Below, piece after piece: positions 132 to 7,377 of a stretch of 64,000 nucleotides of DNA. The translations under genes were made by a program, and so were the position numbers. The notes beneath the pieces were generated by a model. The model was not told the DNA's origin. It saw only the letters and a list, made by a program, of their open reading frames with translations, and made no database searches. Each line of letters begins with the position of its first letter. Within the stretch, counting starts at the first letter, position 1. The stretch comes from Parvibaculaceae bacterium PLY_AMNH_Bact1 (GTDB taxonomy: Bacteria; Pseudomonadota; Alphaproteobacteria; Parvibaculales; Parvibaculaceae): positions 1,054,001 through 1,118,000 of the forward strand of contig CP126168.1 in assembly GCA_032881465.1 (NCBI GenBank), written 5' to 3'.

Positions 132-533
132 ATGGTGAACCGACATCGCGGTGAAGTAGAGCTCAAAATAGACGGTAAGAGCCACACGCTCTGTCTGACC
201 TTAGGCGCGCTCGCCCATCTGGAAGCAGCCTATGGCGGTGAAGACATTCTGACCCTCGCCGAGCGCTTCTCCCGAGGCCATCTGACCAGCACGGATGCCT
301 TGAACCTGTTGCAGGCGGGTCTGAAAGGCGGCCGCCACGAGTGCGCTGCGCTTGATCTTGAAAACCTGAGCTTTGAGGGCGGTATGGCCGGTTTGATCCG
401 CATCCTGGCGGACCTGCTCCGGGTGACGTTTGGAGGTTCGGAGATAGAGGGCATCGAAAAAGCCGAAGCCGAGATGAACAAGCAAGAGGAGGACAAACAG
501 GATATGCCCCCTTTCCCTGGAAGGCCCTCTTGA
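132..533 (+). CDS. GTA gp10-like tail-assembly chaperone
   Basis: A 133-aa protein starting MVNRHRGEVE and matching the GTA gp10 family (Phage_TAC_11). The body is the compact helical part of the family (LTLGALAHLE, then a GRHECAALDL stretch), followed by an acidic, charged tail from about residue 105. A longer frame is open upstream, but ATG 132 is where family similarity begins and it abuts the gp9 stop. It probably guides tail-tube assembly around the tape measure. The last ten codons hold an X XXY YYZ heptamer (CCCTTTC, 509-515) in the zero frame, and slipping there fuses this protein to the next chaperone. TGA at 531 ends the unshifted product. Confidence 0.85.
   Translation: MVNRHRGEVELKIDGKSHTLCLTLGALAHLEAAYGGEDILTLAERFSRGHLTSTDALNLLQAGLKGGRHECAALDLENLSFEGGMAGLIRILADLLRVTFGGSEIEGIEKAEAEMNKQEEDKQDMPPFPGRPS
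487..515 (+). promoter_or_regulatory. Candidate -1 programmed frameshift site
   Basis: A perfect AGGAGG lies at 487-492 and a slippery heptamer C CCT TTC at 509-515, phased so that CCT (510-512) and TTC (513-515) are zero-frame gp10 codons. After a -1 slip, reading continues CCC TGG AAG into the next frame, which stays open to 718. The zero-frame stop is only 15 nt past the heptamer. An internal Shine-Dalgarno sequence upstream and a slippery heptamer are the known layout of bacterial -1 sites such as dnaX, although 16 nt of spacing is on the long side. No strong downstream hairpin is evident by eye. Confidence 0.55.
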
Positions 534-718
534 GCTTTGCCTGCGGCGTGCTGCACTGGACACCAAGGGACTTCTGGTCGGCGACTTTATCTGAGCTGGA
601 AGGGGCAGCGTTGGCATTTGCCCCCGGTGAAAATGGCGCAATGCCAAGGGGCGGCCTTATCGGTCTGATGGCGCGCTTCCCTGATGATGATACAGGAAGA
701 AATTTGGATGGAATTTGA
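530..718 (+). CDS. GTA second tail-assembly chaperone (rcc01693/Phage_TAC_6 type)
   Basis: This frame encodes the short chaperone that normally sits between gp10 and the tape measure, recognised by GVLHWTPRDFW followed by T-x-x-EL. The conserved family start (F-x-W-x-x-L) lies upstream of any start codon: between 428 and 530 this frame has no ATG, GTG or TTG, and TTG 530 would begin after the motif. The whole domain is produced only if ribosomes slip -1 at 509-515, giving a 195-aa gp10 fusion (128 residues from gp10 plus 67 from here). That is the lambda G/GT arrangement. TTG 530 is given as the only independent start. A one-base sequencing error in the C run is the alternative explanation. 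Confidence 0.6.
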   Translation: MSFACGVLHWTPRDFWSATLSELEGAALAFAPGENGAMPRGGLIGLMARFPDDDTGRNLDGI

Positions 719-1394
719 GAGTTTCGATGTGCGGCGATTGTCGTCGGACGTGGCCGGCCTTCGTGCGGAGTTTGACGCGACAGCGAGTGCCAGCGGACGG
801 CTCGGCAAAGAAGCCAAGACCGCCTTTGCGGGCATCACACGAGAAGGGGACCGTGCCTCCAGAGTGGGACAGGATTTGCAACGCTCCCTTGGATCAGCGT
901 TCGACGATCTGGTGATGGGCGGGCGGTCGTTACAAGACGTATTGAAATCCCTCGCGGTCGATCTCGCAAAATTGGCGGCACAGGACATTTTTGGAACCGG
1001 GGTTGGGGGTGGTCGATCGGGAACCAGCGGGTCAGTATTAGGAGATCTGTTTGGATCAATCCTGACACCCAATACCAAAGGGAATGTGTTTTCTCAGGGG
1101 TCACCTTTAATGGGCCCTGTGCAGGCCTTTGCAAAGGGGGGCGTGCTGTCCGACCCAACCCTTTTCTCAATGCGGGGTGGGGTAGGGCTTGCCGGTGAAG
1201 CGGGTGCTGAGGCGATCCTGCCGCTTGCCCGTGGCGCGGATGGAAAGCTTGGTGTGGCATCGCGAGGAAACGGCCAAGCCCTCAACATCACTTTCAATGT
1301 CACTGCGACCGACGCGGCAAGTTTTAAGCGCAGCGAAAGCCAGATCGCCACGATGCTTCAGCGCACGGTCAGTCGCGGCAATCGCAACCTTTAA
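708..1394 (+). CDS. GTA tail tape measure protein (gp11 type)
   Basis: A 228-aa protein in the tape-measure position. It has an N-terminal helical stretch (about residues 1-85), a Gly/Ser-rich middle and a C-terminal segment with AFAKGGV, LAGEAGAEAILPL and ITFNVTATDA, all typical of GTA gp11, which is much shorter than siphophage tape measures. ATG 708 was chosen because AGGAAGA (694-700) lies seven bases upstream. ATG 684 is in frame but lacks such a site and would overlap the preceding gene further. It presumably sets tail length and is threaded by the two chaperones upstream. Confidence 0.85.
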   Translation: MEFESFDVRRLSSDVAGLRAEFDATASASGRLGKEAKTAFAGITREGDRASRVGQDLQRSLGSAFDDLVMGGRSLQDVLKSLAVDLAKLAAQDIFGTGVGGGRSGTSGSVLGDLFGSILTPNTKGNVFSQGSPLMGPVQAFAKGGVLSDPTLFSMRGGVGLAGEAGAEAILPLARGADGKLGVASRGNGQALNITFNVTATDAASFKRSESQIATMLQRTVSRGNRNL

Positions 1395-1408
1395 GAAGAG
1401 AAGCAGAA

Positions 1409-2047
1409 ATGGCATTCCATGAAGTTCGCTTTCCGCTTGAAGTCGGTTTTGGCTCTTCAGGCGGTCCGGAGCGGCGTACGGAAATAGTGACGCTTGGCTC
1501 GGGTCACGAAGAACGCAACTCACCCTGGGCTGATAGCCGCCGGCGGTATGATGCGGGTTATGGCATTCGGTCCCTGGAAGACCTGCATACCGTGATTGCT
1601 TTTTTTGAAACCCGCCACGGGCGGTTGCATGGGTTTCGCTGGAAGGACCGCGCCGATCATGCGTCCGGTGCGTATGGGGCACCGGTGACATCCTCCGATG
1701 AGCTTCTGGGAACGGGTGACGGCGCCAATACGGCCTTCACTCTCACCAAACACTATGCCTCCGGTGGGGAGACCTATGTGCGAACCATTGCAAAGCCTGT
1801 GGAGGGCACTGTGCGTGTTGCGGTCGATGGCGTGGAACAGGCACTGGCCTCCAACTTTGTTCTGGATGCGACCACGGGCGTTGTCATTTTTTTGAGCGGA
1901 CATGAGCCTGCACCTGGTCAAAATGTGACAGCAGGCTTTGAGTTCGATGTGCCCGTGCGCTTCGACACAGACTTTCTCGATATTTCTCTCACAGGCTTTG
2001 ATGCCGGTGACATCCCTTCCATACCGATCGTTGAGATCCGCGTTTGA
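1409..2047 (+). CDS. GTA distal tail protein, DUF2460 (gp12)
   Basis: A 212-aa DUF2460 protein. The N-terminal half carries the family pattern: MAFHEVRFP start, ERRTEIVTLGSGHEERNSPW, then RRRYDAGYG and a FFETRHGRLHGFRWKD motif around residues 66-82. The C-terminal half is a beta-rich domain. In RcGTA this protein forms the distal tail ring at the tail tip. It lies 14 bp after the tape-measure gene behind a purine-rich leader (aagaagagaagcag). Length is normal for the family. Confidence 0.93.
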   Translation: MAFHEVRFPLEVGFGSSGGPERRTEIVTLGSGHEERNSPWADSRRRYDAGYGIRSLEDLHTVIAFFETRHGRLHGFRWKDRADHASGAYGAPVTSSDELLGTGDGANTAFTLTKHYASGGETYVRTIAKPVEGTVRVAVDGVEQALASNFVLDATTGVVIFLSGHEPAPGQNVTAGFEFDVPVRFDTDFLDISLTGFDAGDIPSIPIVEIRV

Positions 2048-2087
2048 CTTGGGGGAATGACGAAATGCGACCGACGGAAAACACAAA

Positions 2088-2975
2088 ATGAAATCTCTTT
2101 CTCCTGATCTCCAGGCGCATTTGGAGAGCGGCGCGACCACTCTATGCTCTTGTTGGAAGCTCACGCGACGTGATGGCGTGTTGCTGGGCTTCACAGATCA
2201 CGACCGGCCTCTGAGTTTCGATGGCACATTGTTTGAGGCCGCAGCAGGCTTCACCGCAAGTTCCATCTCATCATCCAGCGGCTTGGCCGTGGACAATCTG
2301 GATGTTTTGGGGGCGCTCTCGTCAGATCATCTGGAAGACGGGGATCTCGCTGCGGGTCTCTATGACGATGCGGACATTGAAATCTGGCGGGTGAACTGGC
2401 AGGCAACCGCCCAGCGGGTTTTGATGCGCAAAGGCAATCTTGGCGAAATCAGCCGAGGGCCTACCGGGTTTACCGCTGAGGTGCGTGGCCTCTCCCATCG
2501 TCTGAACCAGCCGACTGGGCGTCTTTATCAATATGCCTGTGATGCAGATCTGGGCGATGCGCGATGCGGTGTTTCTCTAAACCAAAGCACATTCACCGGC
2601 ACCGGTTCGGTCGTGAGCGTCTCAGACAATCGAGAGATGACTGTAACCGGGTTGGACGCCTATTCAGACGCATGGTTCACCCGAGGGTTGCTGACCTTCA
2701 CTTCCGGCGTCAATCAGAATGAGGTGTTGGAAATAAAGCGCCACTCCAAACGGGCAGGCGCGGTCGTGCTGGAAGTGTGGCATGCGCCCGCGCAAGCTAT
2801 AGAGGACGGCGTGACCTTGAGCGTGACGGCTGGGTGCAACAAACAATTTCAAACCTGTCGCGCGAAATTTACTAACGCGGCAAGGTTTCGCGGCTTCCCG
2901 CATATGCCCGGAAACGACTTCGCGCTCTCTTATCCGGTGCTCGGCCATAACAATGATGGGGGCAGCCAGGTATGA
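2088..2975 (+). CDS. GTA baseplate hub protein, DUF2163 (gp13)
   Basis: A 295-aa DUF2163 protein. The N-terminal domain (about residues 1-170) has the LTRRDGVLLGFTDHDRPL motif typical of gp13, and the C-terminal phage_BR0599-like part ends with CNKQFQTCRAKF, FRGFPHMPGND and conserved Cys residues. It is a baseplate hub component at the tail tip. A 40-bp gap separates it from gp12, and its stop overlaps the start of the NlpC/P60 gene by four bases (ATGA), so translation is probably coupled. Confidence 0.93.
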   Translation: MKSLSPDLQAHLESGATTLCSCWKLTRRDGVLLGFTDHDRPLSFDGTLFEAAAGFTASSISSSSGLAVDNLDVLGALSSDHLEDGDLAAGLYDDADIEIWRVNWQATAQRVLMRKGNLGEISRGPTGFTAEVRGLSHRLNQPTGRLYQYACDADLGDARCGVSLNQSTFTGTGSVVSVSDNREMTVTGLDAYSDAWFTRGLLTFTSGVNQNEVLEIKRHSKRAGAVVLEVWHAPAQAIEDGVTLSVTAGCNKQFQTCRAKFTNAARFRGFPHMPGNDFALSYPVLGHNNDGGSQV

Positions 2976-3430
2976 CCGGTGACATCACGCCAGTTCAAAT
3001 CGTTGATTGCGCGCGCCGCTGGATTGGTACGCCTTATCGCCATCAGGCAAGCAAATGTGGCGTGGGAGCCGACTGTCTTGGTCTTATCCGTGGTGTTTAC
3101 CGGGACCTTTACGCGCAAGAGCCGGAGACACCACTAGCTTACACGCCCGACTGGGCAGAGGTGCCGGGTCTGGATGGCACGCGAACCGAGACAATGGCGG
3201 AGGCGGCCCGCACGCATCTTGTTGAGCTTGATAAAGCAGAGGCAGAACCCGGCGACGTGCTTTTGTTTCGCATGACACCCGGCGCGGTGGCCAAGCACGC
3301 TGCGGTCAAAAGTTTTGAGGGTCGGATGATCCATGCCTGTTCCGGACGTGCTGTCGCGGAGGTGCATATGGGTACTTGGTGGCCACGCCACCTCGCCTTT
3401 GCATTTCGATTTCCAGGAGAACTTGACTAG
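2972..3430 (+). CDS. GTA NlpC/P60 peptidase (gp14)
   Basis: A 152-aa cysteine peptidase of the NlpC/P60 fold. The catalytic pair is visible as Cys35 in GADCLGL and His109 in KHAAV, with the PGDVLLFR motif at about residues 93-100. In RcGTA the equivalent protein is a tail-tip component that can cut peptidoglycan cross-links so DNA can enter the recipient. It starts inside the gp13 stop (ATGA), and its TAG shares one base with the GTG of the next gene. Confidence 0.93.
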   Translation: MTGDITPVQIVDCARRWIGTPYRHQASKCGVGADCLGLIRGVYRDLYAQEPETPLAYTPDWAEVPGLDGTRTETMAEAARTHLVELDKAEAEPGDVLLFRMTPGAVAKHAAVKSFEGRMIHACSGRAVAEVHMGTWWPRHLAFAFRFPGELD

Positions 3431-6400
3431 TGGCTTCCGTCCTCCTAAGCGCGGCAGGGTCCGCCGTCGGATCTGCAGCTCTGCCAGCAGGCGTGAATTT
3501 TCTCGGCGCGAATATTTCCGGCGCCGCAATTGGCAACGCTGTCGGCACAATCGTCGGGTCGTTGATTGATGATGAGCTCTTTGGCACATCTGTTACCCGA
3601 GACGGACCACGTCTGTCAGACCTTGATGTTCAGGCGTCCACCGAAGGAGCGGCCATCCCGCGGGTGTACGGGCGCGTGCGCCTGTCCGGTCAGGTGATTT
3701 GGTCGACAAAGTTCAAAGAGACAGCCACGACGACGTCAAACAATAGTGGCGGTGGCGGCGGCAAGGGCAGCCGCCGTGCAGGAAATACCGTAGAAACGAC
3801 CACCTATACCTATTCTGTCTCCTGCGCGATCGCTCTTTGCGAAGGACCCATTACCCGTATTGGGGGCATCTGGGCTGATGGCAAGCTGCTGGACCTGTCT
3901 GGACTTTCTTATCGCACCTATCTTGGAACGGAAACGCAGATGCCCGACAGCACCATTGAGGCTGTTGAAGGTGCTGGCAATGTACCAGCCTATCAGGGCC
4001 TGGCTTACATTGTGTTTGATGATTTGCAGCTCGCCAATTTTGGTAACCGCTTGCCGCAGCTGTCAATCGAGGTGTATCGAGCGCTCAGTGATGTTGAGCA
4101 GGACATCAAAGCCGTCACGATCATCCCTGGTGCAACGGAGTTCGGTTACGACACACAAGCCTTTCGGCGGATCTTCGCCGACGGTGTCAGTGACGCTGAA
4201 AACACGAACAATCGCATAGGATTGACTGACTGGCAGGTGTCCCTGAATGACCTGCAGGCCACATGTCCGAATGTGAGCGCCGCAGCACTTGTCGTGAGTT
4301 GGTATGGTGATGACCTTCGCTGTGGGTCCTGTTCCTTGTCTCCAAAGGTGGACCGTCAGGACAAAGCGACCATCCCCGAAAACTGGCAAGTGGCAGGAGT
4401 AGGGCGCGGCACGGCAGGGGAGGTCAGCCGGGTCAGTGGACGTCCGGCCTTTGGTGGTACGCCGTCTGATGCTTCTGTCAGGCGCGCAATTGTAGATCTT
4501 AAAAACCGAGGTCTCTCGGTCTGCTTTTATCCGTTCATCCTGATGGATGTACCCTCAGACAATGGCCTGCCCGATCCCTATGGCTGCACTGAGCAGGCGG
4601 CTTACCCCTGGCGGGGGCGCATTTCGATTGACCCGGCGCCAGGCTTTGTAGGCTCTCCAGACAAGACGGCAGCTGTGGCAGCAGATGTTGCAGCTTTCTT
4701 CGGGACCGCGTCAGCGAGTGATTTTTCTGTGACAGCCACAGGCATCACCTATTCCGGTCCGCAGGAATGGTCTTACCGCCGGATGATCCTTCATAACGCA
4801 GCGTTGTGTGTCTGGGCCGGCGGCGTTGAATCCTTTCTCATCGGATCAGAAATGCGCGGCCTGACGCAGCTGCGCGATGGTGCTGCGACATACCCTGCAG
4901 TTGCTGAACTGAAAGCGCTTGCCAGTGAGGTGCGCGCATTGTTGGGGCCGACGACCAAGATTTCCTACGCTGCCGATTGGTCTGAATATTTTGGTCACCA
5001 TCCCGCAGACGGAAGTGGCGATGTTTTCTTTCATCTCGACCCGCTTTGGTCTGATAGCAATATCGACTTTGTCGGCATCGACAATTACATGCCTCTTGCC
5101 GATTGGCGGGACGGCCACACGCATCTTGATGCGGACACAGGCGTCACAAATATTTATGAGCTCGACTATCTGAAGAGCAATGTGAACGGTGGCGAGGGCT
5201 ATGACTGGTACTATGCCAGTGCCGCGGATCGCGATAACCAACACCGGACCCCCATCACAGATGGCGCACACGGGAAGCCGTGGGTCTATCGGTACAAGGA
5301 TTTGCAGAACTGGTGGAGCAACACCCATGTTAATCGGCCAGGTGGTGTAGAAAGCGGCGGTGCCACAAATTGGGTGCCCAGGGCAAAGCCCATACGTTTC
5401 ACAGAACTTGGCTGTCCTGCGGTCGATAAAGGCGCCAATCAACCCAATGTCTTTGTCGATCCAAAGTCGTCTGAGAGCAATCTGCCTTACCATTCAAATG
5501 GAATACGTGACGACTATATCCAACGCCGGTTTCTGGAAGCCCATCTGACCTCTTGGCAAGACGCTGATGTAAATCCCGTTTCGCCGATTTACGGCGGGCG
5601 CATGGTCGATACCAACCATCTCTACATCTGGACCTGGGATGCGCGCCCGTATCCTTCCTTCCCCTCTCTCACGTCGGTCTGGTCAGACGGGGATAACTGG
5701 CAACTCGGGCATTGGATTACCGGTCGATTAGGCGCGGTGCCTCTGGTTCTTCTTGTGCCTGAAATCGCAAAAGCGGGTGGGGACGTGCCCCTGGATGCAG
5801 GAAATCTCACGGGAACGGTCGACGGTTTCGTTATTGATCGCATCTTGTCCCCGCGCCAGGCAATTGAACCCCTGATGCTCGCGCATTTCTTTGATGCGGT
5901 GGAAAGCGAAGGTGTTGTTCAGTTTCATCATATGGGGAAGGCGTCTTCTCTTTCTTTGACAGCGGCTGATTTGGCGGTTGAGGAGGGATCGGCGCGTGCA
6001 GGCTTCACGCTCACCCGTGGTCAGGAAACCGAATTGCCGTTCGCCGCGAAGCTCACGTTTCTGGATGCTCAGGCAGCCTATCGACAGGCAGCGGTGGAAG
6101 CCCGTCGGGCAACAGTCTCATCGCAGCGTGTCTCTATGGCGGCTTTGCCCATGGTCCTTACCCAGGCTGACGCTCAGCGCATTGCCGAAATCTGGTTGCA
6201 GAACACCTGGGTGAAACGGGAACGTGCTTCTCTGGCGCTGCCGCCAAGTCGGCTGGCGCTTGACCCAGGCGACGTGGTGACACTCGATCTCGGGCACCGA
6301 ATGGTGGACTACCACCTCACCGGTCTCTCTGATGAGGGAGCAATCGAGGCTGAGGCGGTGAAGACCGACGCAAGTGTGTTTGGCATTCTCGCAGCACCCG

Positions 6401-7377
6401 ATCGTGTGCAACCCGCAGAGACCGTATCGAGTTTTGGGCCACCTGACGTGACCTTTCTCGATTTGCCATTGCTCAGTGGCGAGCAGGTGGCGCATGCGCC
6501 GTTCATTGCCGCAACTGCGGTGCCATGGCCGGACAGTGTCGCACTCTATCGAAGCGCAACCGGCTCCGGTTTTGCCCTCGACCGTGTGGTGGATGTGCCT
6601 GCTACCATGGGTCGAACGCTGACAGCGCTTCCTGCCGGTCCGGCAAGCCGATGGGACAGGGCAAATTCAGTTGAGGTGCGCCTGACGAGCGGCGAATTGC
6701 AATCTGTCTCCGAGCAGGCGCTTCTCAATGGGGCGAACCTCGCTGCACTGGAAACAGCGCCGGGTGTCTGGGAGGTGATCCAGTTCGGGCAAGCAGACCT
6801 GATTGACGTGAACACCTACCACCTGAGCCATTTGCTGCGCGGCCAGGCGGGCACAGAACAGGCGATGGCGGAAACGCTTGAGCCTGGTGCCCGGTTCGTC
6901 CTCTTAGATGAGGCCGTACAGCAGATTGGTTTGTCGTCCGCGGAGCGCGGCCTAGCCGTTCATTTCCGCTATGGGCCCGGCCAATATGGCATTGATCATG
7001 AGACATATGCGACAGAGGTACATGCCTTTGACGGTATTGGCCTGCGTCCACTATCGCCTGTTCATATCAAGGGAAGGCGGAATGAAACCGGTGACATTGA
7101 CCTTTCCTGGGTGCGGCGGTCTCGCTTGGATGGCGACAGCTGGGCCGGGCTCGACGTGCCTTTAGGAGAAGAGATCGAAGCCTATGAGATTGATGTGCTC
7201 GAAGGGGGAAACGTGAAGCGCACTCTCGCGGCGTCAACCATGTCGACTGTTTACACCAGCGCCGATCAGATCGCTGATTTCGGCAGCGGCGATTTTCCAA
7301 CCCTCGATCTTGAGATCAGCCAATTGAGCCAAGCGTTTGGCCGTGGCACCAGCAGAAAGGTCACTCTCCATGTCTGA
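3430..7377 (+). CDS. GTA host-specificity/megatron protein with TIM-barrel domain (gp15)
   Basis: A 1315-aa protein, the usual size for GTA gp15. The N-terminus is glycine-rich and hydrophobic (about 1-45), and a VPRVYGR-like baseplate motif (AAIPRVYGR) follows. The GTA TIM-barrel-like domain spans roughly 440-720, with GSEMRGLTQLRD, DFVGIDNYMPLADWRDG and the conserved RFTELGCPAVDKGANQPN. A phage-tail domain follows at about 780-960, then a beta-rich C-terminal region. It forms the tail fibre/central baseplate that contacts the recipient. The start is GTG 3430, whose G is the last base of the gp14 stop. The reading frame is unbroken. Confidence 0.95.
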   Translation: MASVLLSAAGSAVGSAALPAGVNFLGANISGAAIGNAVGTIVGSLIDDELFGTSVTRDGPRLSDLDVQASTEGAAIPRVYGRVRLSGQVIWSTKFKETATTTSNNSGGGGGKGSRRAGNTVETTTYTYSVSCAIALCEGPITRIGGIWADGKLLDLSGLSYRTYLGTETQMPDSTIEAVEGAGNVPAYQGLAYIVFDDLQLANFGNRLPQLSIEVYRALSDVEQDIKAVTIIPGATEFGYDTQAFRRIFADGVSDAENTNNRIGLTDWQVSLNDLQATCPNVSAAALVVSWYGDDLRCGSCSLSPKVDRQDKATIPENWQVAGVGRGTAGEVSRVSGRPAFGGTPSDASVRRAIVDLKNRGLSVCFYPFILMDVPSDNGLPDPYGCTEQAAYPWRGRISIDPAPGFVGSPDKTAAVAADVAAFFGTASASDFSVTATGITYSGPQEWSYRRMILHNAALCVWAGGVESFLIGSEMRGLTQLRDGAATYPAVAELKALASEVRALLGPTTKISYAADWSEYFGHHPADGSGDVFFHLDPLWSDSNIDFVGIDNYMPLADWRDGHTHLDADTGVTNIYELDYLKSNVNGGEGYDWYYASAADRDNQHRTPITDGAHGKPWVYRYKDLQNWWSNTHVNRPGGVESGGATNWVPRAKPIRFTELGCPAVDKGANQPNVFVDPKSSESNLPYHSNGIRDDYIQRRFLEAHLTSWQDADVNPVSPIYGGRMVDTNHLYIWTWDARPYPSFPSLTSVWSDGDNWQLGHWITGRLGAVPLVLLVPEIAKAGGDVPLDAGNLTGTVDGFVIDRILSPRQAIEPLMLAHFFDAVESEGVVQFHHMGKASSLSLTAADLAVEEGSARAGFTLTRGQETELPFAAKLTFLDAQAAYRQAAVEARRATVSSQRVSMAALPMVLTQADAQRIAEIWLQNTWVKRERASLALPPSRLALDPGDVVTLDLGHRMVDYHLTGLSDEGAIEAEAVKTDASVFGILAAPDRVQPAETVSSFGPPDVTFLDLPLLSGEQVAHAPFIAATAVPWPDSVALYRSATGSGFALDRVVDVPATMGRTLTALPAGPASRWDRANSVEVRLTSGELQSVSEQALLNGANLAALETAPGVWEVIQFGQADLIDVNTYHLSHLLRGQAGTEQAMAETLEPGARFVLLDEAVQQIGLSSAERGLAVHFRYGPGQYGIDHETYATEVHAFDGIGLRPLSPVHIKGRRNETGDIDLSWVRRSRLDGDSWAGLDVPLGEEIEAYEIDVLEGGNVKRTLAASTMSTVYTSADQIADFGSGDFPTLDLEISQLSQAFGRGTSRKVTLHV

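Follow-up and report, generated by a model that had tools for sequence, protein, structure and literature searches.

How the second tail chaperone of a gene transfer agent (GTA) is translated, when the frame encoding its conserved N-terminus has no start codon ahead of it, is the question raised by the first genes of the window, i.e., the whole stretch of 64,000 nucleotides analysed from contig CP126168.1 of Parvibaculaceae bacterium PLY_AMNH_Bact1. GTAs are domesticated phages, and the comparison of their tail-chaperone pairs makes it very probable that chaperone 2 of this RcGTA-type pair is made by a programmed -1 ribosomal frameshift of the lambda G/GT type. Judging from the reading frames, chaperone 2 is most likely produced only when the ribosome slips back by one base near the end of gp10.

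The chaperone pair and its junction

All features of the window described here lie on the forward strand. The first chaperone, gp10 (GTA g10), is an ORF at 132-533, starting at ATG 132 and ending at TGA 531-533, with a zero-frame product of 133 aa that matches PF11836 (Phage_TAC_11, GTA-gp10; 81.2 bits, E 5.9e-23). Chaperone 2 (GTA g10.1/g10.5, rcc01693 family) is encoded at 512-718 in the -1 frame and matches PF09550 (Phage_TAC_6; 52.4 bits, E 7.2e-14), the alignment beginning at the first position of the model, which corresponds to the residues FPW (512-520); its match to TIGR02216 is under the cut-off. This small ORF pair is present in a single copy and sits between the major tail gene g9, ending at 130, and the tape measure gene g11 (684-1394), the next gene after the chaperones, whose start at 684 falls within the 3' end of chaperone 2. 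The tape measure match to NF058675 (RcGTA_tape, E 8e-47) spans the whole model, yet its 159.8 bits stay below the cut-off of 220, and the protein is read as homologous but divergent.

The remaining tail genes g12-g15 follow intact at 1409-7377, as four ORFs (1409-2047, 2088-2975, 2972-3430 and 3430-7377) assigned by gene order, the first matching TIGR02217/DUF2460; within the cluster, the PF11836, PF09550 and TIGR02217 matches are above cut-off. Upstream, the ORFs at 6482-14130 of L147 follow the RcGTA order of small terminase, terminase, portal, protease, capsid, head-tail connectors and major tail protein, these names being given from order and size rather than from HMMs, and together with 132-7377 of the window they make up the head-tail cluster g1-g15. 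By gene content and order, the window is thus read as carrying the tail end of a complete RcGTA-type GTA cluster.

The first-pass annotation held that chaperone 2 has no possible start ahead of TTG 530, and this was confirmed: from the stop at 374-376 onward, the -1 frame contains no ATG, GTG or TTG upstream of FPW, TTG 530 being the first, and it remains open from there up to the stop at 716-718. The elements it had described around the junction are also present, namely the heptamer C CCT TTC (509-515) in the zero frame of gp10, where a slip leads to CCC TTT, the gp10 stop TGA (531-533) 15 nt past the end of the heptamer, and AGGAGG at 487-492. T TTC CCT (512-518) forms a second heptamer that overlaps with C CCT TTC. 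Translation of both frames likewise bears out the 195-aa fusion proposed there (132-718), with gp10 residues 1-128 read in the zero frame (132-515) and 67 residues in the -1 frame (515-715). The occurrence of a heptamer at this junction is well above chance, the rate of in-frame XXXYYYZ motifs in window ORFs of at least 200 aa being 0.0021 per codon, and CCCTTT is absent among the 41 instances found in those ORFs.

The slip that we infer, with its frequency and the roles of its products, would proceed as follows. The majority of ribosomes would translate gp10 and terminate at TGA 531, while in a minority the tRNA-Pro on CCT and the tRNA-Phe on TTC would step back by one nucleotide, from C CCT TTC to CCC TTT. 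The established tandem-slippage model allows these tRNAs to pair anew with CCC and TTT, the first two anticodon pairs being retained. The slipped ribosomes would then read on in the -1 frame through FPW, yielding the 195-aa gp10-chaperone 2 fusion. By analogy with lambda, the gp10 part may coat the tape measure protein and the added domain may recruit the major tail protein, with a fixed ratio of short to long chaperone.

Conservation in the genus and the start of chaperone 2

The first-pass annotation considered a missing base in the C run as the main competing explanation. In this reading, one C would be lost from 507-511, by sequencing error or by a recent frameshift mutation, and the real start of chaperone 2 would be ATG 504 behind AGGAGG. 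This in-frame ATG, with AGGAGG 11 nt upstream, does resemble an ordinary start, and MPPFPWKALL would make a normal N-terminus; however, the explanation fails when the relatives are compared. In a set of 12 sequences, which takes in the whole genus (seven species) and five environmental contigs (gp10 identity 74-81%), every member shows the offset of -1, lacks a start codon ahead of FPW and carries the sequence CCCTTTCCC. The C run is interrupted in three of them (GCGCCC in L163, GGTCCC in L009 and L011), with offset and heptamer kept, and at the codon aligned to ATG 504 most relatives have TTG, while L006 has CTG and L009 and L011 have CCG. The genome is, moreover, a single contig of 3.74 Mb. 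As all the related species examined share the slip site, a sequencing error does not account for it, and a lost base is left with hardly any probability. A zero-frame internal start at 504 followed by a slip was also considered and, given the TTG, CTG or CCG found at that codon in other relatives, is not general.

The codons of the slip site are constrained as well. Its Pro-Phe-Pro residues are encoded by CCC, TTT and CCC in 12/12 sequences each, although CCC accounts for 27% of Pro and TTT for 49% of Phe codons in window genes, whereas other conserved positions vary in their codons among the same 12 sequences (F9 TTT/TTC, P18 CCA/CCG/CCC, L7 TTG/CTG, S8 AGC/AGT). The position of the gp10 stop, 19 nt past the first T of TTT, is also common to the whole set. 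The second heptamer seems not to be essential, being lost in L023, L126, L130 and L132; in the last three, the residue next to CCCTTT becomes S, R or G, and CCCTTT itself is kept, which speaks for C CCT TTx being the functional slip site.

A start at TTG 530 would make the slip unnecessary. In such a termination-reinitiation scheme, chaperone 2 would be translated without FPWKAL from the TTG overlapping the gp10 stop (TTGA), and stop/start overlaps of the NTGA kind are indeed usual in sister lineages (GTGA/ATGA), with TGATG found at +16 in several other C-type junctions. Still, TTG 530 is replaced by CTG in three of the seven species of the genus (L005, L006 and L011), for which reason it was rejected as an internal start for the genus. 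The residues upstream of it, which reinitiation does not require, are conserved: W3 is kept in 27/27 no-start overlapping junctions and in 50/50 aligned relatives, among which F1 is nearly invariant. In the AlphaFold2 model of chaperone 2, helix 1 begins with W3 (local pLDDT about 89), suggesting that residues 1-6 belong to the fold and that a start at residue 7 would cut this helix. In addition, reinitiation leaves the constraint on the CCC and TTT codons unexplained, so that it appears improbable next to a slip at C CCT TTC. Regarding the structures, comparison with the PDB gave nothing usable for either chaperone by sequence or for gp10 by fold, and the gp10 model had weak fold matches to annotated phage chaperones, the best named one with E 4e-3 and TM 0.57.

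The absence of a start codon could also mean that chaperone 2 is no longer made in the genus, the start having decayed and the conserved site being a relic. GTA clusters often decay, but here the frame is open, the protein is similar between species (62-68% identity to L003-L005), W3, W16 and W22 are invariant and the rest of the cluster is intact, leaving this explanation with next to no likelihood.

Junctions across RcGTA-type GTAs

The first-pass annotation had proposed aligning this junction across GTA-bearing alphaproteobacteria, and the result agrees with a frameshift, as the offset, the missing start and the heptamer, conserved in the genus, recur in other lineages. The search covered the genus, the family, the class and two contig collections, giving 238 loci with 174 distinct gp10-chaperone 2 junctions. 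Of the 70 -1-frame junctions that lack a start, 67 have C CCT or XXXYYYZ in the zero frame, while 43 of the 55 with an ATG or GTG start have neither (Fisher 6e-19, a value inflated by kinship; in a tree-aware test, 10 independent pairs on well-supported branches gave a mean of 5.4 concordant against 0.2 discordant, median p 0.06). CCCTTT lies directly at the FPW junction in 23/27 no-start overlapping junctions compared to 10/147 others (Fisher 4e-17). Zero-frame C|CCT occurs at 120/3339 positions of gp10 tails against 1/14972 of gp10 bodies.

The phase of these motifs bears on how the slip may occur. In gp10 tails of no-start overlapping junctions, XXXYYYZ is found at 46/903 positions in the slip phase and at 4/876 and 5/876 in the other phases, the rate in the gp10 body being about 0.001; over the three junction classes, the slip phase holds 46/903, 26/862 and 46/1574, and either other phase 1-5 instances. 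This restriction is a signature of translation and speaks against transcriptional slippage, in which the C5 and T3 runs at the site would generate a mixed mRNA pool instead of a ribosomal slip. The runs on which such slippage is commonly reported consist of some 8 or more A or T, whereas the runs here are short and C5 is not conserved, making a transcriptional origin extremely doubtful compared to slippage of the ribosome.

Within the family, two other genera (L023 and L060) share the kind of junction seen in the window. Parvibaculum-like GTAs (g5) and the genus g2 have an ordinary ATG or GTG start overlapping the gp10 stop, with no slip site. Relatives of this type were taken by the first-pass annotation as speaking against a frameshift; they do exist, but gp10 there stops before FPW, so they represent an alternative state and not a refutation. 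The Parvibaculum-like GTAs share with the window the families of gp10 and chaperone 2 and the -1 offset, differing in the end of gp10, the overlapping start and the absent slip motif. As chaperone 2 of these sister genera comes from an ordinary overlapping start, not every GTA of the RcGTA type needs the fusion.

The slip motifs themselves differ among junctions, including C CCT TTx, A AAC CCT and G GGA AAG, the last being that of lambda. GTAs of the Brucella/Phyllobacterium type have A AAC CCT followed immediately by the gp10 stop, with TTG, TTA or CTG as the -1 codon, so the start codon cannot be the conserved feature there. In nine such loci (L037, L043, L075, L078, L085, L213, L215, L218 and L226), A AAC CCT or A AAC CCC stands directly before the stop, and chaperone 2 lacks a start codon, as the -1 codon is not a usual start and is mostly TTA or CTG. 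In some Brucella-type GTAs (L050, L059, L164, L179 and L185), a partial duplication of the PFPW segment precedes chaperone 2, e.g., PEPFPWPEPFPWDEVM. The lambda heptamer G GGA AAG occurs in Rhodomicrobium-like GTAs; it was seen in the gp10 zero frame of L044, L133, L139, L165, L170, L174 and L190, with three copies in L139. Junctions of the Bosea type (L071, L076, L077, L079-L081, L083 and L086-L088) have no start codon, and all three kinds of stop end gp10 at the same place; they carry a conserved GCCCTCCGCAGCCGCC with zero-frame C CCT and no XXXYYYZ, possibly allowing a single-tRNA slip.

The C-type site underwent at least four changes on well-supported branches, an approximate figure from a quick tree with long branches. 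With several slip motifs and start-less junctions carrying them, frameshifting is probably widespread in GTAs. It is reasonably likely that -1 frameshifting is the common route to chaperone 2 in RcGTA-type GTAs, with many replacements of the slip site (C CCT TTx, A AAC CCT, G GGA AAG or C CCT alone) and lineages switching between frameshift and ordinary overlapping start.

Candidate stimulators of the slip were sought on both sides of the heptamer. Upstream, the SD-like AGAGGAGGA (485-493, including AGGAGG) ends 15 nt before the heptamer and, with an anti-SD duplex of -12.0 kcal/mol, is the strongest anti-SD pairing within gp10 of the window; across the genus, the energy peak is kept about 15-16 nt upstream of the heptamer. 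Among C-type junctions, 17/23 rank in the top 10% of their own gp10 background for such pairing (control mean rank 0.44). The suggestion of the first-pass annotation that AGGAGG is a stimulator therefore stands as to its presence and conservation at a fixed distance, and AGGAGG probably aids the slip by pairing with 16S rRNA; this role is plausible, though GAG GAG encodes Glu-Glu in the acidic tail of gp10 and the amino-acid constraint may itself produce the SD-like stretch. Downstream, no conserved RNA structure (hairpin or pseudoknot) was found in the genus, where fold z-scores are mostly about 0, and strong hairpins appear only in single relatives (L011 and L131).

Known chaperone frameshifts and significance

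Lambda makes G and GT in a set ratio of 30:1, and neither product is found in the particle. Both come from a gene arrangement similar to that of the window, with two small ORFs between the major tail and tape measure genes, a zero-frame XXXYYYZ shortly ahead of the first stop and a second ORF in the -1 frame without its own start. The window differs from lambda in its heptamer (C CCT TTC, against G GGA AAG), in its chaperone families PF11836 and PF09550, and in that the pair belongs to a chromosomal GTA with an SD-like element upstream. The lambda gpG/gpGT programmed -1 frameshift is reviewed in PMC5009743 (see also Xu, Hendrix and Duda 2004), according to which gpG attaches to the tape measure and the T part to the major tail protein, the proportion of the two products being important.

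RcGTA itself has a homologous pair, g10/g10.5, at the same place in its head-tail cluster; it is named tail chaperones 1 and 2 in PMC11409702, which nowhere mentions a frameshift, and, unlike the reading proposed here, the literature treats the two as ordinary genes. Nereida (L092), the only named Rhodobacterales locus in the set, starts chaperone 2 with an ordinary ATG and lacks a slip site. Phage 9g resembles the window in having a CCCUUU-based slip in its tail-chaperone pair, on CCCUUUUUUU (PMC4276943), and differs in its -2 shift, its longer U run and being an unrelated phage. Other reports concern a +1 frameshift in a Wolbachia GTA-like hydrolase, which is a different gene (PMC10299305), the usual chaperone frameshift noted in Rhodobacter phages and not in RcGTA (PMC8601537), and GeneTack, which reports an HK97-like chaperone cluster only (PMC3711429). 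No earlier report of a frameshift in GTA chaperones was found in the literature searched, and its novelty is provisional, subscription papers and preprints being outside that scope. Among phage records, close relatives number only two; both are GTA-like contigs whose junction is of the A AAC CCT type, and neither has the frameshift annotated.

Chaperone 2 is missed or truncated by gene callers, which the frameshift explains. As an example, the public annotation of the sewage contig MW091529 (L239, 2405-2563) puts the start of chaperone 2 behind FPW, at residue 7. Upstream of that annotated start the frame is open, and A AAC CCT TGA lies at the end of gp10; the annotated start is likely a mis-annotation. 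If frameshifting is the common route, many genomes would carry a wrong or truncated annotation in treating g10 and g10.1 as independent genes. The need for a fused chaperone has a natural experiment in closely related GTAs, some of which use the frameshift and some of which do not. Frameshifts of the lambda G/GT kind are already known; the GTA case, which appears to be new, is of interest to GTA and recoding specialists. A retained frameshift, if true, would mean that the host kept the phage control over the ratio of tail assembly proteins, which argues for selection on functional particles.
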